Source of the DNA: Pseudemcibacter aquimaris
GTDB lineage: Bacteria; Pseudomonadota; Alphaproteobacteria; Sphingomonadales; Emcibacteraceae
Direction of reading: 5' to 3'
NCBI RefSeq assembly: GCF_028869115.1
Contig: NZ_CP079800.1
Location: 186,001 to 250,000, forward strand
Length of the DNA: 64,000 nt
Shown here: piece after piece, positions 36,157 to 52,740 of the stretch
Numbering within the stretch: the stretch's first letter is position 1
Layout of the letters: each line of letters begins with the position of its first letter
Translations under genes and position numbers: made by a program
Notes under the pieces: model-generated
What the model was told of the DNA's origin: nothing
The model's database searches: none
What the model saw: the letters and a program-made list of their open reading frames with translations, nothing else

Positions 36157-36166
36157 TGTGATCACA
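36157..36166. promoter_or_regulatory. GntR-type operator TGTGATCACA (aminotransferase/spdH divergent promoter)
   Basis: Exact ten-base palindrome flanked by TTT on the left and TTT on the right. It is centred 24 bases before the aminotransferase start and ~68 before the spdH-like start, a position able to control both. Confidence 0.7.
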
Positions 36167-36229
36167 TTTTCTATTTCAGCAAGATGTCATATAGTAGAAT
36201 GGATGTAAAGAGAGAAAGATAAGCAGAAA

Positions 36230-38128
36230 ATGAAGAATAAAACTTTCGCAAATATCAATAGACGTGACTTCCTGGGGGGTGTTGCATTAACAGGTGCCGC
36301 AGGCATGATGTTATCACCAGCAGAATTATTGGCCAAACAATCTGGAACGGCTGCGAATTATTATCCACCGGCACTTACAGGTATGCGCGGCAGTCATGTT
36401 GGCTCTTTCGAGGTTGCACATTCCGTATCATGGGAAGGAAAGGATTGGGGAATTCCCAAGGACCAAACCGATGATACATATGACATGATTGTTGTCGGTG
36501 GTGGTATTTCCGGTCTTTCTGCCGCGTTTCTTTATCAGCAAAAATCAGGTGGCGGGAAAAAGATACTCATCCTTGATAATCATGATGATTTTGGCGGTCA
36601 TGCAAAACGTAATGAATTTACCGTTGATGATGTACTGATCATAGGTTATGGCGGCAGTCAAACTATACAGGACCCAGGACAATATTCACCAGAAGCAGCA
36701 CAATTGCTAAAGGATATATCCATCGAAACAGATAGGTTTTATGGGTATTATGATCAGGATTTTTATAAGAAATGGAAACTCTCTTCTGCGCTTTATTTTA
36801 AAGATGATAAAAAAGTTATTCGTGACCCTTTTCAGGGCGAAAATGGCTTTATCGGCGGGATAAAAATGAACAAAAAAGAACGTATCGCCTTAATTCGAGA
36901 TTTTCCCATTTCAGAGGAAGCACAAGATGCACTTATAGAACATGTGTTTGATGCAAAAGATCGATTGCCTGATCTATCTACGGGAGAAAAAATCGTAAAA
37001 TTACGTGGTATGAGCTATACGGATTTTCTGGAAAAACATTGCGATATGCCCAAAGAAGCCAGAGACATTATCCGCGATTCTGCAATTGGCCTTTGGGGTG
37101 CTGGATGGGATGCGCTTTCTGCGCTTGAGGCAATTAACATGTGGCAACCGGGCATGCGTCATTATGATGACGTTAATGAAGTGATCTTTGCAGATGAAAA
37201 GGAAAGTGAGCCTTATATTTTTCATTTTCCAGACGGAAATGCCGGTGTTGCCAGATCACTTGTGCGAAAATTAATACCGGATGCAGTACCTGGATCAACC
37301 ATGGAAGATCTGGTGCTTGCTCGTGTTGATTATAGCAAACTGGATCAGGGCGAAAATGATAACCGCATCAGATTAAGCAGTACCGCTGTTAATGTGCAGC
37401 ATACGGCTGATCAGTCACATGTTGATGTCACATATGTGAATAAGGATACCCCATATCGCGTAAGGGCAAAGCATGTTGTGATGGCATGTTATAATAATAT
37501 AATCCCGTATATTTGCCCGGAAGTGCCAGAAAAACAAGAGGAGGCCATCAATTATGCCACCAAGATTCCTCTAGTTTACACGAATGTGGTGATCAGAAAT
37601 TGGCGCGCATTTGCAGAACTTGAAACAAGCCGATTTCATATTCCAAACAGCGATTTGACGCAGGATTATTATCTGGATTTCCCGGTATCAATGGGCGGGT
37701 ATGATTTTTCTGAAAATCCGGACAGGCCAATTGTGGTGCATGGAACCTATGTACCGACAGTACCAGATCAGGGGTTTAACCAAAAAGAACAAAGCCAAAT
37801 GGGCCGGATGAAAGTATATCAAACGGATTTTTCAGAATTTGAAAAGCATGTTTATGAAAGTTTTGATGGCATGCTTAAGGGGGGCGGTTTTGACGCTGAA
37901 CATGATATTGCCGCCATTACTGTAAACAGGTGGCCGCATGGTTATTCGTGGGAATATAATCATCTTCATGATGATCCTTCCTATACACCATATAACGGGC
38001 CCCATATTGCAGGACGCGCCAGAATTGGACGCATTTCAATTGCCAACGCCGATGCATCCGCATATGCGTATGTGAACGGCGCAATTGATGCTGCCGTTCG
38101 TGCCGTTAATGAGCAAATAAGCTTATAA
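36230..38128 (+). CDS. spermidine dehydrogenase-like flavoprotein
   Basis: 632 residues. N-terminal Tat signal RRDFLGGVALTGAAG (Arg 11-12), so exported folded with FAD. Dinucleotide motif MIVVGGGISGLSAAF (~86-100) and LDNHDDFGGHAKRNEF, which matches Pseudomonas SpdH. SpdH oxidises spermidine (and spermine) to 1,3-diaminopropane plus 4-aminobutyraldehyde and passes electrons to the respiratory chain; the partner cytochrome is not encoded nearby. It has TGTGATCACA sites both upstream (36157) and immediately after its stop (38131). Regulation by one of the FCD GntR proteins is inferred from position. Confidence 0.83.
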   Translation: MKNKTFANINRRDFLGGVALTGAAGMMLSPAELLAKQSGTAANYYPPALTGMRGSHVGSFEVAHSVSWEGKDWGIPKDQTDDTYDMIVVGGGISGLSAAFLYQQKSGGGKKILILDNHDDFGGHAKRNEFTVDDVLIIGYGGSQTIQDPGQYSPEAAQLLKDISIETDRFYGYYDQDFYKKWKLSSALYFKDDKKVIRDPFQGENGFIGGIKMNKKERIALIRDFPISEEAQDALIEHVFDAKDRLPDLSTGEKIVKLRGMSYTDFLEKHCDMPKEARDIIRDSAIGLWGAGWDALSALEAINMWQPGMRHYDDVNEVIFADEKESEPYIFHFPDGNAGVARSLVRKLIPDAVPGSTMEDLVLARVDYSKLDQGENDNRIRLSSTAVNVQHTADQSHVDVTYVNKDTPYRVRAKHVVMACYNNIIPYICPEVPEKQEEAINYATKIPLVYTNVVIRNWRAFAELETSRFHIPNSDLTQDYYLDFPVSMGGYDFSENPDRPIVVHGTYVPTVPDQGFNQKEQSQMGRMKVYQTDFSEFEKHVYESFDGMLKGGGFDAEHDIAAITVNRWPHGYSWEYNHLHDDPSYTPYNGPHIAGRARIGRISIANADASAYAYVNGAIDAAVRAVNEQISL

Positions 38129-38130
38129 AT

Positions 38131-38140
38131 TGTGATCACA
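38131..38140. promoter_or_regulatory. GntR-type operator TGTGATCACA between convergent genes
   Basis: Exact core in extended form AATTGTGATCACAAT, two bases after the spdH-like stop and eight bases before the GntR stop (opposite strand). A 20-bp gap between convergent genes is an unusual place for an operator; it could serve a DNA loop with 36157 and 39037, or block transcription. Confidence 0.6.
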
Positions 38141-38148
38141 ATAATGGG

Positions 38149-38847
38149 TTATTTGGATGATGTATGCCCAAGTAATTCCATGCCAATGCGGTCCATACCA
38201 TCATAAATATCAAGTCTGATGGCTTCGCGAAGCGCTTGTTCATCGCCCTTTTTAAGGGCATCAATGGCGCAAATGTGCTGATCAATGACCAGTGAAGTAC
38301 CCAGCCTTCCGACCACAACCCGCATAAATGGGCCAAATTGTAGCCAGATGCTTTCAATAAGTCTTAACATAATTGGGCTATTGGCTGCTTTATAAAGTGT
38401 GAAATGGAACTCTCTGTTTCTTTCGCTATAGGCATCCGGGTCGCCGTTATCAATCGCTTCTGAAATTTCCAGATCGATTTTTTCTAACGTTTTAATCAGT
38501 TTATCATCACAATTTGCCATTGCCAGGGCCGCAATTTCCGGCTCCAAAATTGTGCGTGTATGCACAATTTCGCGGTATTTTTCATCGGTCATACTGGCTA
38601 CGGAAACGCGCCGTGTACTGCGCATTTCAAGCGCCCCAAGTGCCACCAAACGGCGGATCGCTTCGCGTACCGGCATTGGGCTTACGTTTAGTTCTTCCGC
38701 TAGTCCCCGAATGGTAAGCGTACGACCCGGGCCAAACTTGCCCGAAATAATTGCTTCGTACAGACTATTGTAAACGGTTTCATGGGTGATTTCTCGTTCA
38801 CTTGGCTGGTTATCAACAGTATTTGTTAGTGCCACTTTTTTTTCCAA
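38149..38847 (-). CDS. GntR-family regulator, FCD (FadR-type) subfamily, no. 1
   Basis: 232 residues from TTG 38847; GTG four codons on is possible. Winged helix at ~20-85 with LTIRGLAEELNVSPMPVREAIRRL. The C-terminal all-helical FCD ligand domain has EPEIAALAMA, NREFHFTLYKAANS and DQHICAIDALKKGD, whose Asp/His residues usually bind a metal for carboxylate ligands. The recognition helix SPMPVREAIRRL is nearly identical to that of the second GntR in this window (SAMPVREALKRL). It lies among four TGTGATCACA sites and is the prime candidate to bind them. Confidence 0.92.
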   Translation of the reverse strand: MEKKVALTNTVDNQPSEREITHETVYNSLYEAIISGKFGPGRTLTIRGLAEELNVSPMPVREAIRRLVALGALEMRSTRRVSVASMTDEKYREIVHTRTILEPEIAALAMANCDDKLIKTLEKIDLEISEAIDNGDPDAYSERNREFHFTLYKAANSPIMLRLIESIWLQFGPFMRVVVGRLGTSLVIDQHICAIDALKKGDEQALREAIRLDIYDGMDRIGMELLGHTSSK

Positions 38848-39031
38848 TTTATTGGTATTGTTGTATTTTGTCCCTATTCACAACCTCAATGACCCATTTC
38901 ATTAGGAAATGCAAGGGTTTTCTTCTATTTACACAGTTAAGTAAAACTTATTTTCGAGTTAAATCAATAACTTAGTCAGAATGTAAAATGTGTGTTTGAA
39001 AAGACTTGAATATAGGATTATATAATGACAT

Positions 39032-39051: not shown

Positions 39052-39078
39052 GCATGTATTGAAGCATTGAGGACCAAA

Positions 39079-39918
39079 TTGAAGTTATTAATAGTTGAAG
39101 GAAATACCGCTGAAGCGAGGGATCAGGCAGTCGCCGCTGGCAGTATGGCGCAAAGTACGCTGTATCATAAAACGCTGGAATGGCTCAAGCCAGGCATTTC
39201 ATGTGATATCGTATATCCTGCTGATGGGTCAGTGGGCTTACCTGATGCTGATAGATTGAATAACTATGCCGGTGTTGTCTGGACGGGATCGTCGCTTAAT
39301 ATTTATGAAGATGACCCAGCGATTACAAGGCAGGTCGATTTTATGAAACTGTGCTTTGAAAGCGGTGCAATGATTTTCGGCAGCTGTTGGGGATTACAAA
39401 TGGCCGTGGTGGCAACGGGTGGCACGGTTGTGAAAAATGAAAAGGGCCGCGAAGTGGGTATCGCACGTGATATCGCGCCAACACATCAAGGTGAAAATCA
39501 TCCAATGTTTGGTGGAAAGCGCGGTATTTTCGATGCAAATGCCATTCATCTTGATCATGTTGAAAAAATTCCAGAAGGGGCAACGGTTCTTGCTGGCAAT
39601 GAAATGTCCGAAGTGCAGGCAATTGAAATTAAACGTGGGGACGCGATTTTCTGGGGTGTTCAATATCATCCTGAATTTGATCTTGAATATATGTCTTACA
39701 TCGTCAGGAAATATAAACAAATGATGGTGGACGAAGACATTTGTGAAAGCAATGAAGCGGCCGAAAAGTTATCATCGGATTATCTTGCTGTTCACAATGA
39801 TCAAACACGAAAAGACATTATTGAGAATCTTGAAATTGGTGAAGATGTACTTGACCCGTGTCTTAGGCTTAAGGAAATCGGTAATTGGTTGGATTTCATA
39901 GAAAAACCGCTAAACTGA
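39079..39918 (+). CDS. class I glutamine amidotransferase (PuuD-like role)
   Basis: 279 residues from TTG 39079, chosen because GAGGA lies five bases upstream; an in-frame TTG at 39067 overlaps that site. GATase1 triad: Cys in IFGSCWGLQMA, His in GVQYHPEFD. A GMP-synthase-like amidotransferase domain is followed by ~70 extra helical residues. First gene of an operon with gamma-glutamylpolyamine synthetase, aldehyde dehydrogenase and aminotransferase. Here it would logically hydrolyse gamma-glutamyl-GABA (the PuuD step) or another gamma-glutamyl amide; it is not a close PuuD sequence, so this is inference from context. Confidence 0.8.
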   Translation: MKLLIVEGNTAEARDQAVAAGSMAQSTLYHKTLEWLKPGISCDIVYPADGSVGLPDADRLNNYAGVVWTGSSLNIYEDDPAITRQVDFMKLCFESGAMIFGSCWGLQMAVVATGGTVVKNEKGREVGIARDIAPTHQGENHPMFGGKRGIFDANAIHLDHVEKIPEGATVLAGNEMSEVQAIEIKRGDAIFWGVQYHPEFDLEYMSYIVRKYKQMMVDEDICESNEAAEKLSSDYLAVHNDQTRKDIIENLEIGEDVLDPCLRLKEIGNWLDFIEKPLN

Positions 39919-39950
39919 ACGTCTTATAAAAATAAATAAACAGGTGAAAA

Positions 39951-41315
39951 ATGGAAAAGGCGAGCAATATAGATAACTTTAAAACGTGGTTAAGCGATAA
40001 TGACGTGGTGGAGGTTGAAATCGTGGTGTGCGATTTTGCGGGGATTGCCCGTGGAAAATTAATACCGGTTGAAAAATTTATCGGCAGCCTTGGCGGGCGT
40101 GATTTAAGAATGCCGGATTCAATTTTTTCTACGACCGTTGACGGCCAGTTTGCTTTAAATGAATATCTTGATGATCTGGAATCTGATCTTTATCTGATAC
40201 CGGAATATGAAACATTACGCATGACGCCATGGCGTAAAAAGAAAACCGCATCCGTGATCTGTAGTTTAATTGATGATGACGGTGAAAATGCAAAAATGGA
40301 CCCGCGTCAAATCCTTAAAAATGTGCTTAATCTTTATAAAGAAAAGGGATGGCAGCCGATTGTTGCGCCGGAATTTGAATTTCACCTTATTGCACAGCAG
40401 GGCGACAGTCTTGATGACCCAAGTACAGCATCTGGAAAAACCGGAAAACCAATTGGGGATAAGGCAATGTTTTCCATGGATAGCCTTGATGAATTTGAAG
40501 GGCTGTTTTCTGATGTTCGTGAATATTCCGCGATCATGGGTGTTCCCATTGATACAATTGAAAAAGAGGCGGGCGCAGGACAATTTGAAATTAACATGCA
40601 GCATGGTGATCCACTTGATGTGGCGGATCAGGCCTTTCATTTCAAAAGAATTTTAAAGCAATCAGCCAATAATCATGGTGCAACCGCGACGATGGCGGCG
40701 AAACCTTTCCCGTCTGACTATGGTAATTCCATGCATATTCATCAAAGTGTTGTGGGTGCAGACGATGGTAAAAATATTTTCGCGGATGATGATGGCAATA
40801 ACACGGAAATTTTTGAAAATTATGTGGCCGGCATTCAGAAATATGTACCGAACCTGATGCCGATATTCGCACCCTATTCAAACAGTTATCTGCGTTTTGG
40901 CAGTGCATTAAGTTCACCTGCCAATTTGCATTGGGGTGTTGAAAATCGCTCAGTAGGCCTGCGCGTCCCAGCCGGAAGCAGTAGAGCAGCAAGGCGTGTT
41001 GAAAACCGCATCGCGGGATCGGACGTTAATCCGTATCTTGTTTTTGCGGCGTCACTGATGGCGGGATATCTTGGTATTGAGCAAGGTTTGAAACCGAGCG
41101 AAGCCGTCGATGATTCAGCATATGAGATTAAAACACTATTGTTACCAACAAATATTTATGAAGCACTGAATGATTTCGATAAATCGAAGATGATCCGAAA
41201 ATATCTTGGGGATGAATTTGTGACCACCTTTAAAGGGGTCAAGCAACTTGAATGTCAGGCAAATGAAAGCAAATTAACCGAGTGGGAAATTCGCTATCTG
41301 CTTGCCAATGTATAG
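39951..41315 (+). CDS. puuA: gamma-glutamylpolyamine synthetase, glutamine synthetase family (PuuA-like)
   Basis: 454-residue glutamine-synthetase-fold ligase. Beta-grasp N-terminus with CDFAGIARGKLIP, then the catalytic domain: APEFEFHLI, EKEAGAGQFEIN (metal Glu), FPSDYGNSMHIHQS (the HxH of GS), and RVPAGSSRAARRVENRIAGSD with the Arg residues that position glutamate and phosphate. In the puu context it would attach glutamate to putrescine or another amine using ATP. It is 32 bases after the amidotransferase gene with AGGTGAAAA upstream. GlnT- or isopropylamine-type ligases are close relatives. Confidence 0.85.
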   Translation: MEKASNIDNFKTWLSDNDVVEVEIVVCDFAGIARGKLIPVEKFIGSLGGRDLRMPDSIFSTTVDGQFALNEYLDDLESDLYLIPEYETLRMTPWRKKKTASVICSLIDDDGENAKMDPRQILKNVLNLYKEKGWQPIVAPEFEFHLIAQQGDSLDDPSTASGKTGKPIGDKAMFSMDSLDEFEGLFSDVREYSAIMGVPIDTIEKEAGAGQFEINMQHGDPLDVADQAFHFKRILKQSANNHGATATMAAKPFPSDYGNSMHIHQSVVGADDGKNIFADDDGNNTEIFENYVAGIQKYVPNLMPIFAPYSNSYLRFGSALSSPANLHWGVENRSVGLRVPAGSSRAARRVENRIAGSDVNPYLVFAASLMAGYLGIEQGLKPSEAVDDSAYEIKTLLLPTNIYEALNDFDKSKMIRKYLGDEFVTTFKGVKQLECQANESKLTEWEIRYLLANV

Positions 41316-41334: not shown

Positions 41335-42822
41335 ATGAACACATATAGCGACTGGAAAGATAAAGCATCATGGCTATCCATCAGAAATCAGGCGTTTATC
41401 GACGGTAAGTTTGTAAATTCCATTTCTGGGAAAACGTTTAGTAATATTAATCCTGCAACTGCAGAAAAGCTGATTAATGTTGCCGAATGCGATAAGGCCG
41501 ATGTTGATTATGCAGTTGCTGTAGCCAGAAAAGCGTTTGATGACGGCCGTTGGTCAAATATGCATCCATCCGAACGTGGCAAGCGTTTAATGAGGCTTGC
41601 TGAACTTATTGAAGAGCATCAGGATGAACTGGCGCTTTTAGAAACGTTGGATATGGGTAAGCCTATTACGGAATCAACGCGCATTGATATTCCGGGCTGC
41701 GCGCGCTGTATCCATTGGTATGGTGAGGCCGCCGATAAATTAATGGATGAAATTGCGCCAACTGATCCATCGGCACTTGCGATGGTAACGCGTGAGGCTT
41801 TAGGTGTGATCGGTGTGGTGGTTCCATGGAATTTCCCACTGATGATGGCGTGTTGGAAATTGGGGCCTGCTCTCGCGGCGGGTAATAGTATCGTTCTTAA
41901 GCCTGCTGAACAGTCACCGCTGTCTGTTCTTAAACTTGCGGAACTTGCATCAATGGCGGGTATTCCGGATGGTGTTTTAAATGTGCTGCCGGGGTTTGGT
42001 GAAACGGCGGGTAAAGCCATTGGCCTTCATATGGATGTTGATATGATTGCCTTTACCGGTTCAACCCAGGTTGGCAAGTTTTTCATGGAATATAGCGGTC
42101 AGTCGAATTTGAAACGTGTGTCGCTTGAATGCGGTGGAAAATCACCGCATATCGTGATGAATGATTGTCCGGATCTTGACCGTGCAGCAGGTGATGCGGC
42201 CAGCGCGATTTTCTTTAATCAGGGTGAGGTCTGTACAGCGGGTTCAAGGCTTCTTGTTGAAGAAGGCATTAAAGACGAATTTATGGAAAAACTTATCAAG
42301 GCAAGTGGCAGCCATAATGTTGGTGACCCACTTGACCCTGATACGACGATGGGATCGCTTGTTGAAGAAGGCCATATGAATAAGGTGCTTTCTTATATCG
42401 ATAAAGCAAACGAAGAGGGCGCTTCTTGTAAGCTTGGTGGTACAAGAAGTGCAGGTCGTGATGGCTTCTTTGTTGATCCGACAATCTTTGATGATGTTAA
42501 GCCATCCATGACCATCGCGAAGGAAGAAATTTTTGGCCCCGTGCTTTCTGTTTTGACATTTAACGGCGAAGAAGAAGCGGTGAAAATTGCCAATGATACC
42601 ATTTACGGCCTTGCTGCGGGACTGTGGACAAAAGATATTTCAACCGCACATAGAATGGCGCGCGCTGTGCGTGCAGGAACCGTATGGGTGAACGGATGGG
42701 ACCCAAGCGGCGATATGACAATCCCGTTTGGTGGATTTAAACAATCAGGATTTGGCCGTGATAAATCAATTCATGCGCTTGAAAAATATACAGACCTTAA
42801 AACAACCTGGATTTCGCTTTAA
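41335..42822 (+). CDS. puuC: NAD(P)-dependent aldehyde dehydrogenase (PuuC-like)
   Basis: 495-residue ALDH. VVVPWNFPLMMACWK and FTGSTQVGKF form the cofactor site; the general-base Glu is in LECGGKSP and the catalytic Cys in FNQGEVCTAGSR. The C-terminal VWVNGWDPSGDMTIPFGGFKQSGFGRDK is seen in gamma-glutamyl-gamma-aminobutyraldehyde dehydrogenases. In the cluster it would oxidise the aldehyde formed by the PuuB-like enzymes or the 4-aminobutyraldehyde from the SpdH-like protein. It is 19 bases after puuA. Confidence 0.87.
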   Translation: MNTYSDWKDKASWLSIRNQAFIDGKFVNSISGKTFSNINPATAEKLINVAECDKADVDYAVAVARKAFDDGRWSNMHPSERGKRLMRLAELIEEHQDELALLETLDMGKPITESTRIDIPGCARCIHWYGEAADKLMDEIAPTDPSALAMVTREALGVIGVVVPWNFPLMMACWKLGPALAAGNSIVLKPAEQSPLSVLKLAELASMAGIPDGVLNVLPGFGETAGKAIGLHMDVDMIAFTGSTQVGKFFMEYSGQSNLKRVSLECGGKSPHIVMNDCPDLDRAAGDAASAIFFNQGEVCTAGSRLLVEEGIKDEFMEKLIKASGSHNVGDPLDPDTTMGSLVEEGHMNKVLSYIDKANEEGASCKLGGTRSAGRDGFFVDPTIFDDVKPSMTIAKEEIFGPVLSVLTFNGEEEAVKIANDTIYGLAAGLWTKDISTAHRMARAVRAGTVWVNGWDPSGDMTIPFGGFKQSGFGRDKSIHALEKYTDLKTTWISL

Positions 42823-42852: not shown

Positions 42853-44235
42853 ATGCTGAATTACAACAGAACAACCGAGCAATGGCAGGAATTTGACCGC
42901 GATCATCATGTGCACCCTTTTTCGGATCCTGATGCGCTGGGTAAAAAAGGTGCCCGCATTATAACAAAGGCAGAAGGCAGTTATATTTTCGATTCAGAAG
43001 GTCATAAAATCCTTGATGGTATGGCGGGATTATGGTGTGTGAATGTTGGTTATGGCCGTCAGGAATTAATCGATGCCGCAGACCGTCAGATTAAAGAACT
43101 GCCATATTATAATAGCTTTTTCCAAACCGCACATCCGCCGCAGATTGAATTATCACGGTTGCTTTCTGAAGTAACGCCAGAAGCGATCAATCATTTCTTT
43201 TTCGCGGGTTCCGGCTCAGAAGCCAATGACACAAATGTAAGATTGGTTCGCCATTATTGGAATATTAAAGGGAAACCGGAAAAAAGTACGATCATCAGCC
43301 GTAAAAATGCGTATCACGGCAGTACACTTGCGGCAACCAGCCTAGGTGGAATGGGTTATATGCATAATATGGGCGGTAAGGATGGTTCACTGCTGCCGGG
43401 ATTTGAACATATTAATCAGCCATTCTGGTATCTTGAAGGTGGCGATATGACCGAAGAAGAATTCGGCCTTACTCGTGCACAAGAACTGGAAGAAAAAATT
43501 CTTGAACTTGGTGCGGACAATGTGGGTGCTTTCTTTGGTGAACCAATTCAGGGTGCGGGTGGCGTGATTGTTCCGCCGGATAATTATTGGCCGGAAATTC
43601 AGCGCATCTGTAAAAAATACGACATTTTGTTGATTGTTGATGAAGTCATTTGTGGTTTTGGCCGCACAGGAAACTGGTTTGGTTGTGACACATTCGGCAT
43701 CACACCTGATATGATTACAATGGCAAAGGGGATTTCATCCGGATATATCCCGCTTTCAGCAACAGGCATCAGTGACGATGTTTTTGAAGTGCTGAATTCA
43801 GGTGGTGATATTAACCACGGATATACCTATAGCGGTCATCCTGTGGCCACGGCCGTTGGTATTGCTAATATCAATTATATCAAAGATCATAAACTGGTTG
43901 AAAAAGTTCGCGAAGAAACCGGGCCACATTTAATGGCGGGTCTAACAGATCTGGAAGAAAATCATCCATTGGTTGGTCAGGCCAGAGGGCGCGGCTTAAT
44001 GGCGGCCATTCAGCTGGTGAAAGATAAAGAGACACATGAAATTTATTCCGGTGATACGGACGCGGCATTTATTTGCAGAGAACATTGTTTCAATAATAAT
44101 CTGATTATGCGCGCCACAGATCAATCGATGATTTTAAGTCCGCCGCTTACCATTTCAATTTCAGAAATTGATGAGCTTCTTGAAAAGGCGAAATTCTGTC
44201 TTGATGCAACAGCAAAAGATTTGGGTGTGCTTTAA
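42853..44235 (+). CDS. polyamine:pyruvate-type class III aminotransferase (SpuC-like)
   Basis: 460 residues. FFAGSGSEANDTNVRLVRHYW (PLP phosphate), LLIVDEVICGFGRTGNWFG, and PLP lysine in MITMAKGISSGYIPLSA match the putrescine/GABA--pyruvate group including SpuC. It offers a direct transamination route for putrescine, 1,3-diaminopropane or GABA next to the gamma-glutamyl route. AGGAG lies nine bases before ATG. Its stop overlaps the following flavoprotein start by one base (TAATG), so they are translationally coupled. Confidence 0.88.
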   Translation: MLNYNRTTEQWQEFDRDHHVHPFSDPDALGKKGARIITKAEGSYIFDSEGHKILDGMAGLWCVNVGYGRQELIDAADRQIKELPYYNSFFQTAHPPQIELSRLLSEVTPEAINHFFFAGSGSEANDTNVRLVRHYWNIKGKPEKSTIISRKNAYHGSTLAATSLGGMGYMHNMGGKDGSLLPGFEHINQPFWYLEGGDMTEEEFGLTRAQELEEKILELGADNVGAFFGEPIQGAGGVIVPPDNYWPEIQRICKKYDILLIVDEVICGFGRTGNWFGCDTFGITPDMITMAKGISSGYIPLSATGISDDVFEVLNSGGDINHGYTYSGHPVATAVGIANINYIKDHKLVEKVREETGPHLMAGLTDLEENHPLVGQARGRGLMAAIQLVKDKETHEIYSGDTDAAFICREHCFNNNLIMRATDQSMILSPPLTISISEIDELLEKAKFCLDATAKDLGVL

Positions 44236-45509
44236 TGTCAGAAGAACATTGTTCGTCCTATTACGCGGCGACCGCAAATGATACGACCACATATCCTGAA
44301 CTTGAAGGGCAGGTAAATGTCGATGTTTGCGTGATCGGTGCTGGTTTTACGGGAACCTCTACGGCACTCAATCTTTCTGAACGTGGTTTTAAAGTTGCCC
44401 TTATTGAAGCAAACAGGGTTGGCTGGGGTGCATCGGGCAGAAACGGCGGTCAGGTTGGATATGCCGTGTCAGGTGAAGGAAATCTGCGCCGCGGACAAAA
44501 GGAAGCAGCTGATAAATTGATCAAGGAAATGAATTTCTTAGGTCATGATATCATCAAGACTCGCATTGAAAAGTATGGCATTGATTGTGATTTTAAAGCG
44601 GGCAATATGGCGGCCGCTTGTAAACAAAGACAACAGGATGATCTTGCCGAAGAATATGACCATATGTCATCGCTCGGTTACGAAGATCATTTTACTCTCG
44701 TGGATAAATCAACCATTCAGGATTATATCGGGTCTGACCGTTATGTTGGTGGTTTATATAACAATATTGATGGTCATCTTCATCCGCTTAATCTGTGTAA
44801 AGGGGAAGTTAGGGCAGCCGCAAGCTTGGGCGCACTAATATTTGAACAAAGCCCGGTCACACACATAAAGCACGGTAAAAAGCCGGAAGTTCACACGGAA
44901 AAAGGACATATAGTTGCGGACAAGGTTGTACTTGCGGGTAATGCTTATCACCGGCTCGAAAAAAGAAAGCTAACCGGATATGTGTTTCCGACGGGTTCAT
45001 ACATTATTGCAACGGAACCACTAGAAGATGAGCTTGCAGCAGAACTTCTTGGAAAAGACCAATCTGTATTCGAAGTGAACGAGATACTCGATTATTACCG
45101 TCTGTCGGCGGATAAAAGAATGCTTTACGGCGGTAAGGCCAATTATTCTGGTCGTGACCCGGCCAGTATTAAGGGCGCAATGCTGCCGGATATGCTGAAT
45201 ACGTTCCCGCAATTAAAAGATAAGCATATTGATTTTGAATGGGGTGGCATGATCGGCATCACAATTAATAGAACACCACACGTCGGAAGAATAAACGGCA
45301 ATGTTTATTATTCACAAGGGTATAGCGGCCACGGTTTAAACGCGACGCATATTTTAAGTGAATTTGTATCGGATGCGGTTGCAGGGCAAATGGAACGATA
45401 TGATATTTTTGCCAAGGCAAAACAAATCAGACTTCCGGTACCTAGGTGGGTCGGTAATCAGATGGTGGCATTAGGGATGCTGTATTACCGAATGAAAGAT
45501 CTTTTTTGA
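44235..45509 (+). CDS. puuB: gamma-glutamylputrescine oxidase-like flavoprotein (PuuB-like, copy 1)
   Basis: 424 residues of the DAO/glycine-oxidase fold. N-terminal SSYYAATAND followed by the FAD motif VCVIGAGFTGTSTALNLSERG and GWGASGRNGGQVG, as in PuuB. C-terminal WGGMIGITINRTPHVGR and YSQGYSGHGLNATH complete the flavin site. Expected reaction: oxidative deamination of gamma-glutamyl-putrescine to the aldehyde with release of NH3 and H2O2. A paralogue with the same layout is at 47329. Coupled to the aminotransferase upstream. Confidence 0.86.
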   Translation: MSEEHCSSYYAATANDTTTYPELEGQVNVDVCVIGAGFTGTSTALNLSERGFKVALIEANRVGWGASGRNGGQVGYAVSGEGNLRRGQKEAADKLIKEMNFLGHDIIKTRIEKYGIDCDFKAGNMAAACKQRQQDDLAEEYDHMSSLGYEDHFTLVDKSTIQDYIGSDRYVGGLYNNIDGHLHPLNLCKGEVRAAASLGALIFEQSPVTHIKHGKKPEVHTEKGHIVADKVVLAGNAYHRLEKRKLTGYVFPTGSYIIATEPLEDELAAELLGKDQSVFEVNEILDYYRLSADKRMLYGGKANYSGRDPASIKGAMLPDMLNTFPQLKDKHIDFEWGGMIGITINRTPHVGRINGNVYYSQGYSGHGLNATHILSEFVSDAVAGQMERYDIFAKAKQIRLPVPRWVGNQMVALGMLYYRMKDLF

Positions 45510-46382: not shown

Positions 46383-47120
46383 TTAATTTTTTAATGATTT
46401 GACGTAACCCGTTTTCGGAAGCGGTAAGTTCTTATGTTCTGTCAGCAGGTCGCTTTCCGTTAAGAAACCCATTGATTCACGTATGTCAGCTTCGATTGCG
46501 CTTTTTAAACCAAACGGGTTATGGCTCTTTAGTGATTCAATGATATCGCAGTGACGATCATGGGTATAATGTTCCGGTAGCTTGGCAACAGATAATCTGT
46601 GCAAGGGACCAATTTGAAGCCAGATTTGTTCTATCATGGGCATGGTAACCGGATGCGGGTGTGCGGTATAAAGTGTTCTATGGAAAATCTGGTTGCCCAA
46701 AATAATGCCTCTAAAATCTCTGCGTTCGAATGCATCATTTTGTTTGCTGTTTAATTTTTCTAATAGGCTGAGTTTATCGCCATCGATATAAGGAAGCGCC
46801 CGTGCAGCAGCATATGATTCCAACTCAACACGAAGCTCGATTAATTCAGCGAGCCTTGCGGGCACCAAAGTGGGAACAATGATGCGTCTGTTGGATTTAA
46901 TGGTCAGCGCCCCTTCGGCGGTTAATCTTTTTAATGCTTCACGGACCGGCATTGCACTGACGTCAAGTAATGCAGCAATTTGTCTTATGGTGAGAGCTTG
47001 GCTTGGCTGTAATTGCCCTGACATAATTGCAAACCGAATTGCACGATAAACCCATTCCTGTGATGTTTCATGTTCATCATATGTCAGATCATGTAGGTCG
47101 ATTTCGGGAACGGATTTCAT
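46383..47120 (-). CDS. GntR-family regulator, FCD subfamily, no. 2
   Basis: 245 residues. Winged helix at ~20-85 with LTIRQIAALLDVSAMPVREALKRL. The FCD domain has VELESYAAARALPY, GNQIFHRTLYTAHPHP and YTHDRHCDIIESLKSHN. The recognition helix nearly equals that of the GntR at 38149. Its own promoter region contains two TGTGATCACA-type sites shared with the divergent puuB-like gene, the arrangement expected for an autoregulated local repressor. Ligand probably a carboxylate from amine breakdown (inference). Confidence 0.92.
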   Translation of the reverse strand: MKSVPEIDLHDLTYDEHETSQEWVYRAIRFAIMSGQLQPSQALTIRQIAALLDVSAMPVREALKRLTAEGALTIKSNRRIIVPTLVPARLAELIELRVELESYAAARALPYIDGDKLSLLEKLNSKQNDAFERRDFRGIILGNQIFHRTLYTAHPHPVTMPMIEQIWLQIGPLHRLSVAKLPEHYTHDRHCDIIESLKSHNPFGLKSAIEADIRESMGFLTESDLLTEHKNLPLPKTGYVKSLKN

Positions 47121-47157: not shown

Positions 47158-47167
47158 GGTGATCACA
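47158..47167. promoter_or_regulatory. GntR-type operator variant GGTGATCACA
   Basis: Nine of ten bases match the core. Located 38 bases upstream of the GntR no. 2 start, so it probably mediates autoregulation. The right half-site (TCACAAAAAT) is the stronger. Confidence 0.6.
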
Positions 47168-47248: not shown

Positions 47249-47275
47249 TTGACAATTCTCAAAAATGTGATCACA
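47249..47275 (+). promoter_or_regulatory. promoter and overlapping operator of the second puuB-like gene
   Basis: TTGACA at 47249-47254 is a perfect -35 box. The -10 should fall near 47272-47278, and the exact operator TGTGATCACA (47266-47275) overlaps that place. Occupancy would exclude RNA polymerase, so repression is the likely mode. The gene starts at 47329. Confidence 0.65.
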
Positions 47276-47328: not shown

Positions 47329-48642
47329 ATGCGTTTAAACGACCATATTCATAGTAACGAGTACCCCAATTCTTATTACGCTGCGACACGCAATGATCGC
47401 GGTGGTTTTTCTGTGCTTGAAAATGATGAAACGGTAGATGTTTGTATCGTTGGCGGCGGTTTTTCCGGTATCGCAACGGCACTACATTTAAGCGAACGCG
47501 GTTTCAAGGTTGCGGTCGTTGAACAAAATAAAATCGGCTGGGGCGCAACAGGACGCAACGGTGGCCATATTATTGGCGGATATGCCCATTCATTATGGGA
47601 TCATCAGAAAATGGTAAAATCTTTTGGCGAAGAAGGGGGAAAAGCTGTATGGGATATGTCCGTTGAATGCGTTGAAATCATAAAGGATTGGGTCAGCAAA
47701 TATAATATCGATTGCGATATGGAATTTGGCTATATCGACGTGGCCATGAACAATAAAGAATTGGATGGTTTAAAGCGCGATAATGATAAATTGGCTGACA
47801 AGGATTACGCCTATGAAACGCGCATCGTTGAAGGGGACGAACTTAAGCAATATGTGAAAAGTGATCAATATATTGGCGGTCGTATCAACATGGGGTGGGG
47901 GCAAATCCATGTGCTTAACCTCGTGTTAGGTGAGGCACGCGCAGCCGAAGGACTGGGCGCAAAAATATTCGAAGATACCGCTGTCACAGATATTATTCAT
48001 GGACATAAACCAAAGGTCATTACCGAAAAAGGAACAATTACTGCGGATCATGTTGTTGTTACGGGTAACGGGTATCTTGGCAATTTAATTCCGCATCTTG
48101 CCTCACGGGTTCTGCCCGCGGGCAGTTATATTATTGGTACTGAACCATTAAGTGATGAACAAATCGCCGCAACAATTCCGTATGGATGGCCCACATGTGA
48201 TCAACGTTGGGCGCTTGATTATTACAGGATTTCAGCGGATAAAAGAATGATTTTTGGCGGTCTCGCTACATATTCCGGTCGTCATCCGAACAGCATCAAA
48301 TCGGTGCTTGAGCCAAAAATGCATAAGGTTTTCCCAACACTGAAAGGTGTTAAAATCGATTATGAATGGGGCGGGTATATGGGCATTGGACTTAACCGTA
48401 TCCCAATGGTTGGACATTTAAGTGAAAATGTATATTACGCAACTGGTTACGGTGGTCATGGTGTTGCCCCAACCCACATGTCCGCAAAGCTGATCAGCGA
48501 GGCGATTTCCGGAAATAGTACAAGGTATGATATACTGGCATCCGTTAAACATATGCCGTTCCCGGGGGGGCGTTATCTTATGCAGCCTGCCTATGCGATT
48601 GGAATGGCGTATTACAGAATGAGGGATGCGCTGGGATGGTAA
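47329..48642 (+). CDS. gamma-glutamylputrescine oxidase-like flavoprotein (PuuB-like, copy 2)
   Basis: 437 residues and paralogous to the gene at 44235: NSYYAATRNDRGGF, VCIVGGGFSGIATALHLSERG (FAD), GWGATGRNGGHIIGGYAHS, and the C-terminal WGGYMGIGLNRIPMVGH and YATGYGGHGVAPTHM. It oxidises an amine, probably a gamma-glutamylated polyamine different from that of copy 1. AAGGA precedes ATG 47329. It is controlled by the operator at 47266, and its 3' end overlaps the TPR-sulfotransferase gene by seven bases, so these two are one transcript. Confidence 0.85.
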   Translation: MRLNDHIHSNEYPNSYYAATRNDRGGFSVLENDETVDVCIVGGGFSGIATALHLSERGFKVAVVEQNKIGWGATGRNGGHIIGGYAHSLWDHQKMVKSFGEEGGKAVWDMSVECVEIIKDWVSKYNIDCDMEFGYIDVAMNNKELDGLKRDNDKLADKDYAYETRIVEGDELKQYVKSDQYIGGRINMGWGQIHVLNLVLGEARAAEGLGAKIFEDTAVTDIIHGHKPKVITEKGTITADHVVVTGNGYLGNLIPHLASRVLPAGSYIIGTEPLSDEQIAATIPYGWPTCDQRWALDYYRISADKRMIFGGLATYSGRHPNSIKSVLEPKMHKVFPTLKGVKIDYEWGGYMGIGLNRIPMVGHLSENVYYATGYGGHGVAPTHMSAKLISEAISGNSTRYDILASVKHMPFPGGRYLMQPAYAIGMAYYRMRDALGW

Positions 48643-50234
48643 CAACAACGACGACTAAAAAACCACCTGAATTTACGATGCAACATGCATCGAAATATCT
48701 TGAACGCGGTTTCAATGCTTTAATGAAAAAGGATCTAAAGGATGCGGGGGCGTGCGCCCAACTGGTCCTTAAATATATGCCGAAACTCTCGCAAGCACAC
48801 TTTCTTGTGGGTTTAATTGCTCTTGAAACTGAAGATTGGAAAATAGCGTTAAGCGCATTTGGTACTGTCGTTGAAATTGATGAAAAGCATGCAGCCGCTT
48901 GGGCACAATATGCGCGCGTAATGCTAAAAATGGCAAATTATAATGGTGCTGAACAGGCCTTGAAAAAGGCGGTTGAATATGGCTCAAATGATCCGCTCGT
49001 TCAAAATGTCATTGGGACGGCTTATAATTTGCTTGGTGATCAGAAAGCGGCTTTTGAATGGTATAGTAAGGCCTGCGAGAAGAATAATTCACCGATGTTT
49101 GTTCTGAATAAAGCCAAGAGTTTAGTGTTCTTAGGTAAGATTGATGAGGCGCGCGAAGCACTTTTAAAAGTACTTTCGGTGCTTCCCAAAAATGCAGAAG
49201 CACATTGGATTTTATCAAGACTTGAGAAAGCCAAAGATACAAATCACATCAATGATATTATTAAGCTATTGGAAGATGTGGATGAAACAAGGCAGTCAAC
49301 CGCATATCTTTATTATGGTCTTGCAAAAGAATATGAAGACCTTGAAATGTGGTCGGACGCATTTAAAGCATATGAAAAAGGCGCCAAGATTAAACGCGCG
49401 CATGTCCAGTATGATGAGAAGGCAGAAATTGATGCTTTTGAAACACTGCAAAAGACATTTACGAAAGAATGGCTGGAAAATATCGGCGAAGGGCATGATG
49501 CATCTTCGCCGATTTTTATTGTGGGTCAGCCACGTACTGGTACCACACTAATTGAACGTATCATTACGGCACGTGATGATGTCCATTCTGCAGGCGAACT
49601 TCAACAATTCGGCCATGCTGTAAAAAGCACGGGCGGCGCAAGAATTCCTGGAATGGTATCCAGCGAAAATGTCATTGCCGCTGCAAATGCTGACCCAAAA
49701 TATTTAGGCAAATTTTATATGGAAGCAACTCGCAGTTTACGTGGCGATCTTCCTTATTTTGTTGATAAATTGCCGATCAATTATCTATATGTGCCGCTGA
49801 TTGCGGCAGCGCTTCCGAATGCGAAAATCATTCATGTGAAACGTGATCCAATGGATGCGTGTTTTGCCAGTTATAAACAGCTTTTCGCAGAAGCATATTT
49901 TTATTCATACGATCAAGGTGAGATGGCGAGACATAGCATTCGCTATCAAAAATTGATGAAACATTACCGCGATATTATGGGCGACCGGATGATTGAGGTC
50001 GCTTACGAAGATGTGGTGGACAATATGGAATTTGAGGCAAGACGCCTCATTAAGTATTTGGGGCTCGAATGGCAAGATGCCAGTCTCGAGTTTCATAAGC
50101 AAAAGACTGCTGTAACTACCGCAAGTGCGACGCAGGTTAGAGAAAAAGTACACAGTCGATCTGTTGGAAAATGGCGTCGCTTCGAAAACGAACTAAAGGA
50201 AATGTACACTATTATTAGAAATTCAACCATTTAA
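48636..50234 (+). CDS. TPR-repeat sulfotransferase family protein
   Basis: 532 residues. Residues ~15-260 form tetratricopeptide-like helical pairs (AHFLVGLIALETEDWKIALSAF, AAWAQYARVMLKMANYNGAEQAL). The C-terminal sulfotransferase domain has the PAPS 5'-phosphosulfate loop VGQPRTGTTLIERII (~296-310) and the 3'-phosphate motif HVKRDPMDACFASY (~400-413). It would transfer sulfate from PAPS to a protein or carbohydrate acceptor presented by the TPR. No signal peptide, so cytosolic. Such TPR-sulfotransferases are often found beside TonB receptors, as here (11-base gap), but the acceptor is unknown. Confidence 0.87.
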   Translation: MVTTTTTKKPPEFTMQHASKYLERGFNALMKKDLKDAGACAQLVLKYMPKLSQAHFLVGLIALETEDWKIALSAFGTVVEIDEKHAAAWAQYARVMLKMANYNGAEQALKKAVEYGSNDPLVQNVIGTAYNLLGDQKAAFEWYSKACEKNNSPMFVLNKAKSLVFLGKIDEAREALLKVLSVLPKNAEAHWILSRLEKAKDTNHINDIIKLLEDVDETRQSTAYLYYGLAKEYEDLEMWSDAFKAYEKGAKIKRAHVQYDEKAEIDAFETLQKTFTKEWLENIGEGHDASSPIFIVGQPRTGTTLIERIITARDDVHSAGELQQFGHAVKSTGGARIPGMVSSENVIAAANADPKYLGKFYMEATRSLRGDLPYFVDKLPINYLYVPLIAAALPNAKIIHVKRDPMDACFASYKQLFAEAYFYSYDQGEMARHSIRYQKLMKHYRDIMGDRMIEVAYEDVVDNMEFEARRLIKYLGLEWQDASLEFHKQKTAVTTASATQVREKVHSRSVGKWRRFENELKEMYTIIRNSTI

Positions 50235-50245
50235 GGGAGAAGACA

Positions 50246-52591
50246 ATGAAAATACGAATGGGTAATAAAAGGGCCAGACTATTGGCGGGTGTTTCCGCCA
50301 TATCTTTGGGCCTTGGAATGGCTGGTACGGCCACTGCGCAAGAGGCGCAGGACAGTGATCAGGGGGATGTAGAAACAATCGTTACGGTTGGTAAACGACC
50401 GGAAAATGTACTTGATGTACCGGTTGCGATGACGGCATATAATGCAGAATTCATGGACCGTGTAAATTTGGATGATGTAAAGGACCTGATTAAGTTTTCA
50501 CCAGGATTTGCCGGAGACAGTAAAGACAGTTTTATCGATTTCGTTAATATCCGTGGTATTTCGACCATTGATTATGGTGTTGGTGGTGATCCATCCGTTG
50601 GTTTCTTTAAAAATAATATGTATCAGGGCCGTCAGGGTTCAGCAGTGACGTCAATGTATGATATGGAACGCGCGGAAGTGCTACGTGGGCCACAAGGTTT
50701 CCTATTTGGCCGTAATGCAATTTCCGGTGCCATTAGTTTCCATACAAAAAGACCGGATATGGAAAGTGTAAATGGCTATGTGGATCTAGGTGTTGGTGAG
50801 CGTGGCTTATGGGAAGCGGACGGTGCCATTAACCTGCCAGTGAATGAAAATTTTGCTATCCGTGTGGCGGGTTATACAAGCCATGAAGATGGTTGGATGA
50901 CAAATACATTAAATGCGACAACAGCAGCAGGTAAAAAATATGGCGGCCATAAAAAATCGGCAGGCCGTTTTTCCGCAGCCATCGAAGGTGAAGGCTGGGA
51001 TGCTTTTTTTGTCGCAGAATATGAAGACCGCGATCAGGATGGTACGGTTTACCGTGCACAGTCAGATGAATTTACCGATAATCTCGAAGATATATTCGGT
51101 ACTGGTTGGATGCCGGATACGGATGATTTAAGATCATTTAAATCACACCTTGGGCTTGGTAATGATGATTCAGGTGAAATTGTTACTATTAATGCAGAAA
51201 TTAACATTGATCTTGAATTTGCGACCTTAACATCCTTAACGGGTTTTAAAGATCATAAGTATAATTACGCCGAAAATTATGGTGGTACTGGCCTTGATAT
51301 GCTTGATTATGGTCAGGAACAAGACGGTGATTATTTCGAAGAAGAGATTAGACTGGTTTCCAATACTGATGGGCCGTTAAGCTGGTATGCCGGTGCGTCA
51401 TTCTATAAGGAAAATATTGATGCACTTTTCAAATCACGTTCTTCAGAAGATATCATGTGTGCTTATTATAACTATTATGGTTATGATAACTGTGCGGATT
51501 TATATGCTTATTATTCATATGCCTTTACCCCGTCAGATGGTCTAAATGAACCAAGTGCAATTATCGGTGAATATACCGGTTGGGCAGCCTATGTGAATAT
51601 GGCTTACGAAGTAACAGACAAATTTGATGTTGAAGTCGGTGTTCGTTATACGAAAGATACAAAAGATTTCTCATTCAATGCATTGCCGGTTACCAGTGAC
51701 CTTGGCCCATATTGGAATATCGGTTTCACAACCGATGGATATGTAAGAGAAAAAATCACATGGGATGATTATACACCGCGCTTTATTGCACGCTATAGAC
51801 CCGATGATAATACCATGATTTACGGTAGTATTACCAAAGGTTATAAATCCGGCGGCTTTAATAGTTTTGGTGCTGATTTGACAGATGGTAACGGCGGTTC
51901 TGGCGTTGATGATGATTATGTCGCGCTTCCAGGTACCACACCGAATGAGTTTGGACCGGAAACAGTTTGGTCATATGAATTGGGTGTAAAGGGTAGCAAC
52001 CCTGAAAATACCATTAAGTATGACTTTGCGGGTTACTATTATAAATATGAAGGATTGCAGTTTACATATTTTGACCGTAGTACCCAAACGGCAAACGTTG
52101 GTGAGGTAACATCATATGGTGTCGAAGGTACCGTTCAGGCATTCCTTGGTGAAAATGTCAATGTGATCTTATCTGGTTCCTATAACCACAACGAGATTAA
52201 AGACGCCAATTTGATTGCACCGGGCAGTGACGGAAACCGTCTTTCAGGTGCACCAAAATACAAGGGTGCATTCCTTCTTAATTATACTGCGCCGGTTACA
52301 CAAACTGGTGAAGTGAATGCGTCATTTGAACTTGCTGCACAAAGCAGTCTATTTGTTGGTCTTGGCAACATTCCATCTGGTGAGATGGAAGGATGGGCTG
52401 ATGCCACAGTGCGACTAGGATACGCGGATGATGCAGGTTGGTCGATCACTGCATATGTCGAAAACGTCTTTGATAAAGTTTATTATGACGGCGGCTATGA
52501 AGGTGGCGATATTCAGCCAACTGTATTCTTTGGGCCAAGTCGCCCAAGAACATTTGGCGCAAGACTGTCATATAGATTTGGCGGTAGCTGA
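50246..52591 (+). CDS. TonB-dependent receptor (third in window)
   Basis: 781 residues. Signal peptide ending GMAGTATAQE, TonB box region ETIVTVGKR, then plug domain with VPVAMTAYNAEFM, DLIKFSPGF, VNIRGIST, ERAEVLRGPQGFLFGRNAISGAI. The barrel includes KGYKSGGFN and ends PRTFGARLSYRFGGS. It is of the large FecA/siderophore- or nutrient-type family common in sphingomonads and marine alphaproteobacteria, unlike the smaller pair around soeABC. Notable Tyr-rich loop near residues 405-425 (YYNYYGYDNC...YAYYSYAF) with two Cys, an extracellular loop candidate. AAGGGAG ribosome site. Probably co-transcribed with the sulfotransferase gene. Confidence 0.9.
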   Translation: MKIRMGNKRARLLAGVSAISLGLGMAGTATAQEAQDSDQGDVETIVTVGKRPENVLDVPVAMTAYNAEFMDRVNLDDVKDLIKFSPGFAGDSKDSFIDFVNIRGISTIDYGVGGDPSVGFFKNNMYQGRQGSAVTSMYDMERAEVLRGPQGFLFGRNAISGAISFHTKRPDMESVNGYVDLGVGERGLWEADGAINLPVNENFAIRVAGYTSHEDGWMTNTLNATTAAGKKYGGHKKSAGRFSAAIEGEGWDAFFVAEYEDRDQDGTVYRAQSDEFTDNLEDIFGTGWMPDTDDLRSFKSHLGLGNDDSGEIVTINAEINIDLEFATLTSLTGFKDHKYNYAENYGGTGLDMLDYGQEQDGDYFEEEIRLVSNTDGPLSWYAGASFYKENIDALFKSRSSEDIMCAYYNYYGYDNCADLYAYYSYAFTPSDGLNEPSAIIGEYTGWAAYVNMAYEVTDKFDVEVGVRYTKDTKDFSFNALPVTSDLGPYWNIGFTTDGYVREKITWDDYTPRFIARYRPDDNTMIYGSITKGYKSGGFNSFGADLTDGNGGSGVDDDYVALPGTTPNEFGPETVWSYELGVKGSNPENTIKYDFAGYYYKYEGLQFTYFDRSTQTANVGEVTSYGVEGTVQAFLGENVNVILSGSYNHNEIKDANLIAPGSDGNRLSGAPKYKGAFLLNYTAPVTQTGEVNASFELAAQSSLFVGLGNIPSGEMEGWADATVRLGYADDAGWSITAYVENVFDKVYYDGGYEGGDIQPTVFFGPSRPRTFGARLSYRFGGS

Positions 52592-52615
52592 TAATCAGTG
52601 AAATATTTTGATCGA

Positions 52616-52642
52616 GGGCTGCTTGTTTAAGCGGCCCTTTTT
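52616..52642 (+). terminator. rho-independent terminator after the TonB receptor
   Basis: Stem GGGCTGCTT/AAGCGGCCC (one G-U), loop GTTT, followed by TTTTT. It closes the puuB2-sulfotransferase-receptor unit 25 bases after the stop codon and separates it from the cupin operon. Confidence 0.92.
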
Positions 52643-52668
52643 CGTTGGTATTAGAGCTATTTTCAATA

Positions 52669-52678
52669 TGTGATCACA
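52669..52678. promoter_or_regulatory. GntR-type operator TGTGATCACA, distal site before the cupin operon
   Basis: Exact core. It lies 55 bases (about five helical turns) centre-to-centre from the longer palindrome at 52717, so two dimers could bind on the same face of the DNA. Confidence 0.7.
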
Positions 52679-52716
52679 AATTAAAAACAAACACTTGTGC
52701 TATTTGATATGAATCA

Positions 52717-52740
52717 CTATATTTGTGATCACAAATATAG
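52717..52740. promoter_or_regulatory. 24-bp perfect palindromic GntR-type operator before the cupin operon
   Basis: Core TGTGATCACA at 52724-52733 inside a 24-base perfect palindrome (arms CTATATTTGTGA and its complement). It ends 16 bases before the ATG at 52757, so it covers the likely transcription start or early leader. The longest and most symmetric copy in the window. Confidence 0.8.

Follow-up and report, generated by a model that had tools for sequence, protein, structure and literature searches.

The locus and its repeated palindrome

We analysed a 64,000-nucleotide stretch of the Pseudemcibacter aquimaris genome (NCBI RefSeq assembly GCF_028869115.1, contig NZ_CP079800.1, positions 186,001 to 250,000 of the forward strand), hereafter called the window and numbered from its first letter. 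It carries a spermidine dehydrogenase homologue (spdH), a puu-like operon, a second puuB-like gene (puuB2) followed by sulfotransferase-family and TonB-receptor genes, a cupin/flavoprotein/GcvT unit, and two genes, gntR1 and gntR2, encoding GntR regulators of the FCD type (Table 1). The palindrome TGTGATCACA recurs along this cluster. We treat TGTGATCACA as the core and TTTGTGATCACAAA as the full form of a candidate operator, all sites being predicted by comparison. The comparisons described below point with good confidence to TGTGATCACA, in full TTTGTGATCACAAA, as the operator of an FCD/VanR-type GntR clade that includes GntR1 and GntR2.

The original prediction, made from the sequence of the window, had listed six exact copies of TGTGATCACA and one-mismatch copies at 47158 and 25216. 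All eight were found at these coordinates, and 2620 holds one more copy with a single mismatch. Dinucleotide shuffles yielded 0.10 expected exact copies per window, compared with 6 observed, and 2.37 expected copies with up to one mismatch; the exact set is thus far beyond chance, while a lone one-mismatch copy is not. No support was found for the one-mismatch copies at 25216 and 2620 as operators, and both are compatible with chance. A genome-wide scan, which had been suggested as a check, identified 15 exact copies in the complete genome (3,369,470 bases, one contig), and these are not evenly spread, since the probability of finding at least 6 of the 15 inside 16.6 kb is about 7e-11. When the shuffle mean (0.10 per 64 kb) is scaled from window to genome, about 5 copies are predicted versus the 15 seen, so that some isolated copies outside the cluster may be due to chance; a reversed-pattern control, with 0 copies genome-wide, is a weak control. 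Chance or base composition could draw on this prediction and on isolated copies, for instance the intragenic one in L007, which is probably fortuitous, but as an account of the whole pattern it faces the six clustered copies and site positions that are conserved across genera, and it is so improbable that we set it aside. The 10-letter palindromes are confirmed as a real feature of the polyamine-degradation gene set.

The palindrome accompanies one clade of GntR regulators

We compared the window's family (32 genomes) and order (396 genomes), designating genomes by G, sequence stretches by L and families by f. Within the family, exact copies recur in orthologous gaps, namely between gntR1 and puuD, upstream of puuA, between gntR1 and puuB, between gntR2 and puuB2, upstream of spdH and upstream of the cupin gene. 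When the 396 order genomes were searched with a profile built from the GntR1/GntR2 group, 132 gave matches at E<=1e-25, mostly weak ones; stretches were taken around the strongest matches, and stretches around weaker matches served as controls. The clade set comprises 32 genomes (31 designated genomes and one Hellea metagenome-assembled genome, MAG), while G016 and G006, which carry more distant homologues, were tallied separately. Among all 1024 perfect 10-bp palindromes, TGTGATCACA ranked first, being present at the loci of 28 of the 32 clade genomes with 73 copies, whereas the runner-up reached 8 of 32. Only 1 of 38 control GntR loci has it (Fisher p 3e-14 against 28/32, relatedness ignored). 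When first stretches only were counted, the palindrome was found in 24 of 32 clade genomes, and in 23 of 31 without the window's own genome (p 1e-10). TTGTATACAA, which resembles a normal FCD operator, was present at 12 of the 38 control loci and in 0 of the 32 clade genomes; its recovery at control loci demonstrates that the palindrome method is able to find such sites. On a quick tree of 82 GntR rows, the TGTGATCACA and TTGTATACAA labels required one change each, with 0 of 500 shuffles as low (unlabelled rows were not counted and related rows are not independent). The 76 exact copies at clade loci are distributed over divergent gaps (32), codirectional gaps (30), gaps called convergent (3) and stretch edges (4), and only 7 fall in called open reading frames (ORFs), although ORFs cover 94.5% under simple ORF calling. 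Altogether, the motif accompanies the GntR1/GntR2 clade in five families of the order, and the difference between clade and control loci argues for one regulon read by the two GntR proteins, as originally proposed, as the best reading.

Several observations weigh against it. Extra stretches were fetched for nine clade genomes and for zero controls; 8 of the 32 clade genomes lacked an exact copy in the first stretch, with G094, G072, G092 and G082 gaining copies after extension and G090, G316, G313 and G327 holding one-mismatch copies only, across all stretches. In the eight GntR2-only f5 genomes the kilobase on either side of the regulator gene is free of copies, even of one-mismatch ones, and the sites are found near the operon head, kilobases away. 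Clade genes are also linked to puu genes, which is a partial confounder. Of the three families compared, copies per genome set carriers of a clade gene clearly above non-carriers in f1 only (mean 7.67 versus 2.13, p 0.0008), the difference being weak in f2 (6.6 versus 2.0, p 0.07) and f5 (6.3 versus 4.26, p 0.06). Finally, some genomes without a clade gene hold 4-11 copies (7 in G028, 6 in G012, 7 in G088 and 11 in G099), so another reader or base composition may contribute. These last genomes are what favours a third DNA-binding protein as the reader, the GntR clade being merely linked to the same cluster. Against such a protein, the motif also stands beside a related GntR with a different gene set: in G016 a 36%-identical GntR gene adjoins AACTGTGATCACAGTT (L136:10045-10060), which has the same core and other flanks and lies in front of non-puu genes that we take to encode a beta-keto-acid-cleavage-like enzyme and an SDR. 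Conversely, the motif is absent from L197 and L198, where puuC-like and aminotransferase-like genes adjoin a divergent GntR. We consider a third reader unlikely.

A separate arrangement was seen at eight f6 loci (L203, L208, L209, L211, L213, L215, L218 and L220), each with an FCD GntR bearing Ser-Arg-Thr-Pro, TTGTATACAA within 1 kb and a TonB-receptor match. Judging from these sequences, the f6 TTGTATACAA loci apparently form a separate local regulon.

A PuuR/PauR-like regulator does not go with the motif

The original prediction had overlooked an obvious rival reader in the window, an XRE-cupin gene whose product matches the NCBIfam PuuR model with E 3.9e-37 and 127.6 bits, short of the cut-off of 211. 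The operator might belong to this PuuR/PauR-like repressor, with the GntR genes as mere bystanders: the gene lies 3.7 kb from the first site, PuuR-like proteins are the known kind of regulator for gamma-glutamylputrescine catabolism, and the nine of 32 family genomes that have a close orthologue all hold at least 3 exact copies. However, the motif persists without it. A search of 28 genomes, mostly from other families, gave an orthologue (E<=1e-15) in just 7; 23 of the 28 carry a clade GntR, and 6 of these 23 have the orthologue. G016 likewise has no XRE-cupin orthologue at E<=1e-15. Nine genomes, G001 among them with two orthologues, provided ten regions upstream of XRE genes; the exact motif is in none of the ten, and one region, in G027, has a one-mismatch copy. 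Three of the ten display instead a TGTTTA-N6-TAAACA inverted repeat, possibly the own operator of the XRE-cupin regulator. In addition, G001, with two XRE orthologues and no clade GntR, lacks an exact copy in the surrounding 10.9 and 19.9 kb. By association, then, the XRE-cupin protein does not go with the operator, and we judge it very unlikely as the motif reader. An AptA-type omega-aminotransferase gene (30456-31784, above its NCBIfam cut-off) is divergent from the XRE-cupin gene.

Both regulators are associated with the same core

Genomes with GntR1 only (e.g. G003, G004, G014, G021 and five f2 genomes) carry the same 10-bp core as genomes with GntR2 only (in f5, G068, G084, G041, G094, G072, G092 and G082 with exact copies and G090 with one mismatch; also G005), these groupings being provisional as many genomes are incomplete MAGs. 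The flanks differ. Two bases outside the core, GntR1-only sites prefer T and GntR2-only sites A, and T at -2 was counted in 51 of 62 half-sites in GntR1-only versus 7 of 26 in GntR2-only genomes (Fisher p 1e-6; related genomes are not independent). Since the core is shared while the flanks are not, the proposed cross-talk of two repressors is likely, if perhaps graded. In a variant of our explanation, only one GntR protein reads the operator and the other has changed its specificity, leaving no cross-talk. The -2 difference and the identity of GntR1 and GntR2 (about 37%) would suit this variant; the identical core in both single-regulator groups, and the S-x-Met-P-V-R-E-A stretch and Arg-Arg pair in the wing that both proteins retain, do not, and we regard it as possible but doubtful.

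Between gntR2 and puuB2 the sites are paired, 106-108 bp apart in G000, G022, G027 and G031, with one member degenerate (GGTGATCACA or TGTGATCACT), and in G005 two exact copies stand 109 bp apart ahead of puuB2, at a distance of about 2.4 kb from the gntR2 of that genome. Such paired sites suggest co-operative or looped binding as a possibility.

Individual sites and the copy at the 3' end of gntR1

Of six exact copies, five are upstream of genes, while the copy at 38131 has no promoter position; the one-mismatch copy at 25216 does not stand out from chance. The spdH upstream site recurs in G022 (L143:16860). The degenerate copy at 47158 is backed by conservation, its orthologous place holding GGTGATCACA in G027 and G031 and TGTGATCACT in G022. 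Relatives such as G027 and G031 also have copies upstream of cupin3. In the window, the 52724 site falls within the cupin ORF if this is read from the listed GTG; an in-frame ATG at 52757 is preceded by GAAAGGGAG and appears the likelier start, which would place both cupin sites (52669 and 52724) upstream of the gene. Promoter-like boxes abut three sites, yet the region has fewer such boxes than its shuffles (34 versus 45.0), and the adjacency is therefore weak evidence.

Between the 38131 site and the stop codons of the convergent spdH and gntR1 there are 2 nt and 8 nt, respectively. The equivalent gap holds an exact copy in G027 and a one-mismatch copy in G022. A copy with up to one mismatch within 150 nt past the stop codon, a limit set after examples had been seen, was found for 13 of 24 GntR1-type genes, 1 of 13 GntR2-type genes and 1 of 45 other GntR genes; it stands 8-9 nt past the stop codon in G000, G022, G027 and G310. 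The next gene is convergent in G000, G022 and G027 (the call is doubtful in G370), so that the site there cannot be an ordinary promoter operator. In G003, G004, G014 and G074 the following gene runs in the same direction, and the 3' site could serve that gene. The site might act as a roadblock or form a loop with the 5' operator at a distance of about 0.8-1.1 kb, or it may be a relic left by rearrangement.

Table 1. Genes and predicted operator sites of the cluster (window coordinates unless a stretch is named).
Feature	Position	Strand	Remarks
XRE-cupin PuuR/PauR-like regulator gene	31926..32483	+	likely start ATG 31941
Class-III aminotransferase AT3a	34737..36137	-	
Predicted operator TGTGATCACA	36157..36166	.	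between AT3a (-) and spdH (+); begins 4 nt past promoter-like TTGATT-16-TATAAT
spdH, spermidine dehydrogenase SpdH homologue	36230..38128	+	solved SpdH, E 2e-151, residues 8-628 of 632
Predicted operator TGTGATCACA	38131..38140	.	convergent gap, 3' of both gntR1 and spdH
gntR1, FCD-type GntR regulator	38149..38847	-	TTG start, tentative
Predicted operator, full TTTGTGATCACAAA	39037..39046	.	between gntR1 and puuD; begins 2 nt past promoter-like TTGAAT-17-CATAAT
puuD-like class-I glutamine amidotransferase	39067..39918	+	
puuA-like glutamine-synthetase-family member	39951..41315	+	
puuC-like aldehyde dehydrogenase	41335..42822	+	
Class-III aminotransferase	42853..44235	+	PRK07480 subfamily, above cut-off
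puuB-like FAD oxidoreductase 1	44235..45509	+	
gntR2, FCD-type GntR regulator	46383..47120	-	
Degenerate predicted operator GGTGATCACA	47158..47167	.	38 nt upstream of gntR2; 108 bp from 47266 site
Predicted operator	47266..47275	.	upstream of puuB2; overlaps promoter-like TTGACA-17-CACAAT
puuB-like FAD oxidoreductase 2 (puuB2)	47329..48642	+	
TPR/sulfotransferase-family protein	48636..50234	+	
TonB-dependent receptor	50246..52591	+	
Predicted operator	52669..52678	.	upstream of cupin/flavoprotein/GcvT unit
Cupin, two CrtO/CrtI-like flavoproteins, GcvT-like protein	52697..57468	+	
Second predicted operator of cupin unit, full TTTGTGATCACAAA	52724..52733	.	23 nt ahead of likely ATG 52757
3' copies of gntR1-type genes in relatives	L143:14861, L144:14251, L188:3719, L187:107		

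Genes probably under the operator, in the cluster and elsewhere

The SpdH homologue is similar to solved SpdH over its full length. PuuA and PuuC did not reach the NCBIfam equivalog cut-offs (GGputSyn, 197 versus 650; PuuC, 666 versus 850), and the set is therefore called puu-like, the exact amine not being settled. The CrtO/CrtI-like flavoprotein pair and the GcvT-like protein (53120-57468) recur in the clusters of several relatives (for example L145, L146, L132, L183 and L187).

Outside the window, copies in the same genome lie upstream of succinate-semialdehyde dehydrogenase (SSADH, above the TIGR01780 cut-off), of AdhC, an S-(hydroxymethyl)glutathione dehydrogenase (above the TIGR02818 cut-off), and of a second SpdH-like gene (38% identical to the first over 473 columns); others precede a PhyH-type dioxygenase gene, an MFS gene and a CrtI/CrtO-like flavoprotein gene. 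Of these sites, the one at AdhC is found again in G022 and the one at the PhyH-dioxygenase gene in G027, where two SpdH-like genes elsewhere also have the motif upstream. No recurrence of the flavoprotein site was seen in the relatives looked at; as a recurring target the CrtI-type gene was rejected, the two nearby sites in G022 being 3' of the gene, on the cupin gene side. No link is evident for the copies in L007, L011 and L012, which may be fortuitous; the same goes for several others in G027, G022 and elsewhere whose neighbours found no match in the query set. The regulon probably reaches beyond the roughly 20 kb over which it had been predicted: a single regulon is supported, whereas its confinement to 20 kb conflicts with the SSADH, second SpdH-like and AdhC sites. 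Speculatively, AdhC as a regulon member and the flavoprotein/GcvT cluster hint at the breakdown of N-methylated amines with release of formaldehyde.

The product of the second SpdH-like gene (L014:1519-2907 / L288:379-1764) ends at 463 aa and aligns with residues 5-444 of the first copy, which has 632 aa; the gene may be truncated or a shorter paralogue.

The regulators and their proposed reading code

Both GntR1 and GntR2 match PF00392 and PF07729 above cut-off, which makes them members of the FCD (FadR/VanR) type. The AlphaFold model of GntR1 (mean pLDDT 85.6) displays a winged helix and a helical C-terminal domain. In one named collection the closest relatives of GntR1 (58-77% identical) are encoded by MAGs that bear the labels Kordiimonadaceae, Emcibacteraceae, Emcibacter, Alphaproteobacteria, Proteobacteria and Hellea, which places the window among alphaproteobacteria close to these. 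With 82.9 and 89.8 bits the two proteins do not reach the cut-off of 225 for NF008504 / PRK11414, presumably the McbR family.

The shared operator had been argued from near-identical recognition helices. This argument is weak, since many FCD GntRs share P-V-R-E-A; the mark of the clade is S-x-Met-P, which stands for S-Arg-Thr-P. The 37 clade members listed read S-(P/A/Q/S/T)-Met-P, as against S-R-T-P in standard members. All 37 lack Arg at FadR position 45, which is position 38 of the helix-turn-helix (HTH) and whose Arg reads G in FadR and Atu1419, and carry Pro, Ala, Ser, Thr or Gln instead (positions mapped through the shared V-R-E-A stretch and Table 1 of PMC4494728). By association, the operator TTTGT-GATC-ACAAA fits the FCD palindrome pattern NyGT-Nx-ACNy. 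Its GT/AC spacing is 4 nt (GT-GATC-AC), not the 3 nt reported for the FadR subfamily or the 2 nt of some of its groups; 4 nt is reported for most HutC sites (PMC4494728). The TTGTATACAA of related control GntRs has spacing 2.

Met is reported as the most frequent HutC residue at HTH position 39 (PMC4494728). Among the 82 GntR rows, 3 of which have no recognisable helix pattern, the motif (up to one mismatch, within 1 kb) accompanies 28 of 43 proteins with Met39 versus 3 of 36 others. Met39 by itself fails to predict the motif, which is missing at the non-clade Met39 regulators examined (L161, L166, L191 and others), and a general rule that Met39 means 4-nt spacing is not established. Near-perfect GT-N2-4-AC palindromes within 500 nt were found at 1 of 16 non-clade GntR loci (L136, with Ala at 39). 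A HutC-type control was sought in the same genome, where the helix pattern search gave no such helix and no palindrome.

Discussion

Polyamines are an important source of nitrogen and carbon in the sea, and control of their breakdown has been described in gammaproteobacteria through PuuR and PauR. Here the GntR1/GntR2 clade is a well-supported candidate reader of the operator, which would amount to FCD-GntR control of polyamine catabolism with an operator geometry atypical for the family. Without inducer, dimers of GntR1, GntR2 or both would occupy operators near the -10 box. Repression would cover spdH, the puu-like operon, the puuB2/TonB unit, the cupin/flavoprotein/GcvT unit and the two regulator genes themselves, and would extend to genes elsewhere in the genome, SSADH and AdhC among them. 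The repressors could be released by an intermediate of the pathway, perhaps a gamma-glutamylated or other carboxylate product; we propose a carboxylate because FadR-subfamily regulators bind small ligands such as carboxylic acids (PMC4494728). With a core that both proteins seem to recognise, cross-regulation is to be expected, and the -2 preference (T versus A) would make control graded instead of exclusive.

More tentatively, and as a reading that is less likely than not, we suggest that a VanR-type FCD branch has re-wired its DNA reading: it would have lost the G-reading Arg, gained the adjacent Met and adopted a HutC-like 4-nt half-site geometry, would replace PuuR/PauR in polyamine control in this alphaproteobacterial order, and would loop DNA through paired operators, including one 3' of its own gene. 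For an alphaproteobacterial lineage in which the named relatives are mostly MAGs, the analysis puts forward a regulator, an operator and targets that can be tested. The groups with the same core and different flanks, together with relatives that have TTGTATACAA and a Ser-Arg-Thr-Pro helix, offer a natural comparison for GntR DNA reading.

In literature searched by title and abstract, with most subscription journals outside the search, no FCD-GntR polyamine regulator is described. TGTGATCACA occurs in PMC12724174 as part of a primer, and no PauR or PuuR site sequence was seen in the passages of PMC7901475 and PMC9951944 consulted. The PuuR/PauR XRE-cupin regulons are alike in covering the gamma-glutamylation pathway and later steps with one regulator and scattered sites (PMC7901475). 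They involve another protein family, and here an XRE-cupin gene is present, but the operator does not accompany it. HutC proteins, which mostly have Arg at HTH position 38, differ from the clade both there (Pro/Ala/Ser/Thr/Gln) and in the C-terminal domain, which here is FCD. They resemble it in the 4-nt GT/AC spacing of most of their sites and in Met as the commonest residue at position 39 (PMC4494728). Escherichia coli McbR/YncC (PDB 4p9f) is the nearest relative of solved structure, both in the profile search (E 1.9e-42) and in the fold comparison (TM 0.82); it shares 26% identity in the fold alignment and is reported to favour an ATATAT motif (PMC13343897). A parallel in arrangement comes from Atu1419 of Agrobacterium fabrum, a VanR-group protein which is likewise an FCD-type GntR repressor of a catabolic cluster with 10-bp palindromes (PMC7797058). 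These overlap the -10 box or lie between -10 and -35; a degenerate palindrome stands 109 bp from a full one, two palindromes are 190 bp apart, and the protein is reported as a tetramer on DNA (PMC7797058). It differs in that its operator ATGTATACAT has 2 nt between GT and AC, compared with the 4 nt (GATC) found here, in that it reads with Ser44, Arg45, Thr46 and Arg49 whereas our clade has no Arg at place 45, and in that it controls hydroxycinnamate genes rather than polyamine genes (PMC7797058).

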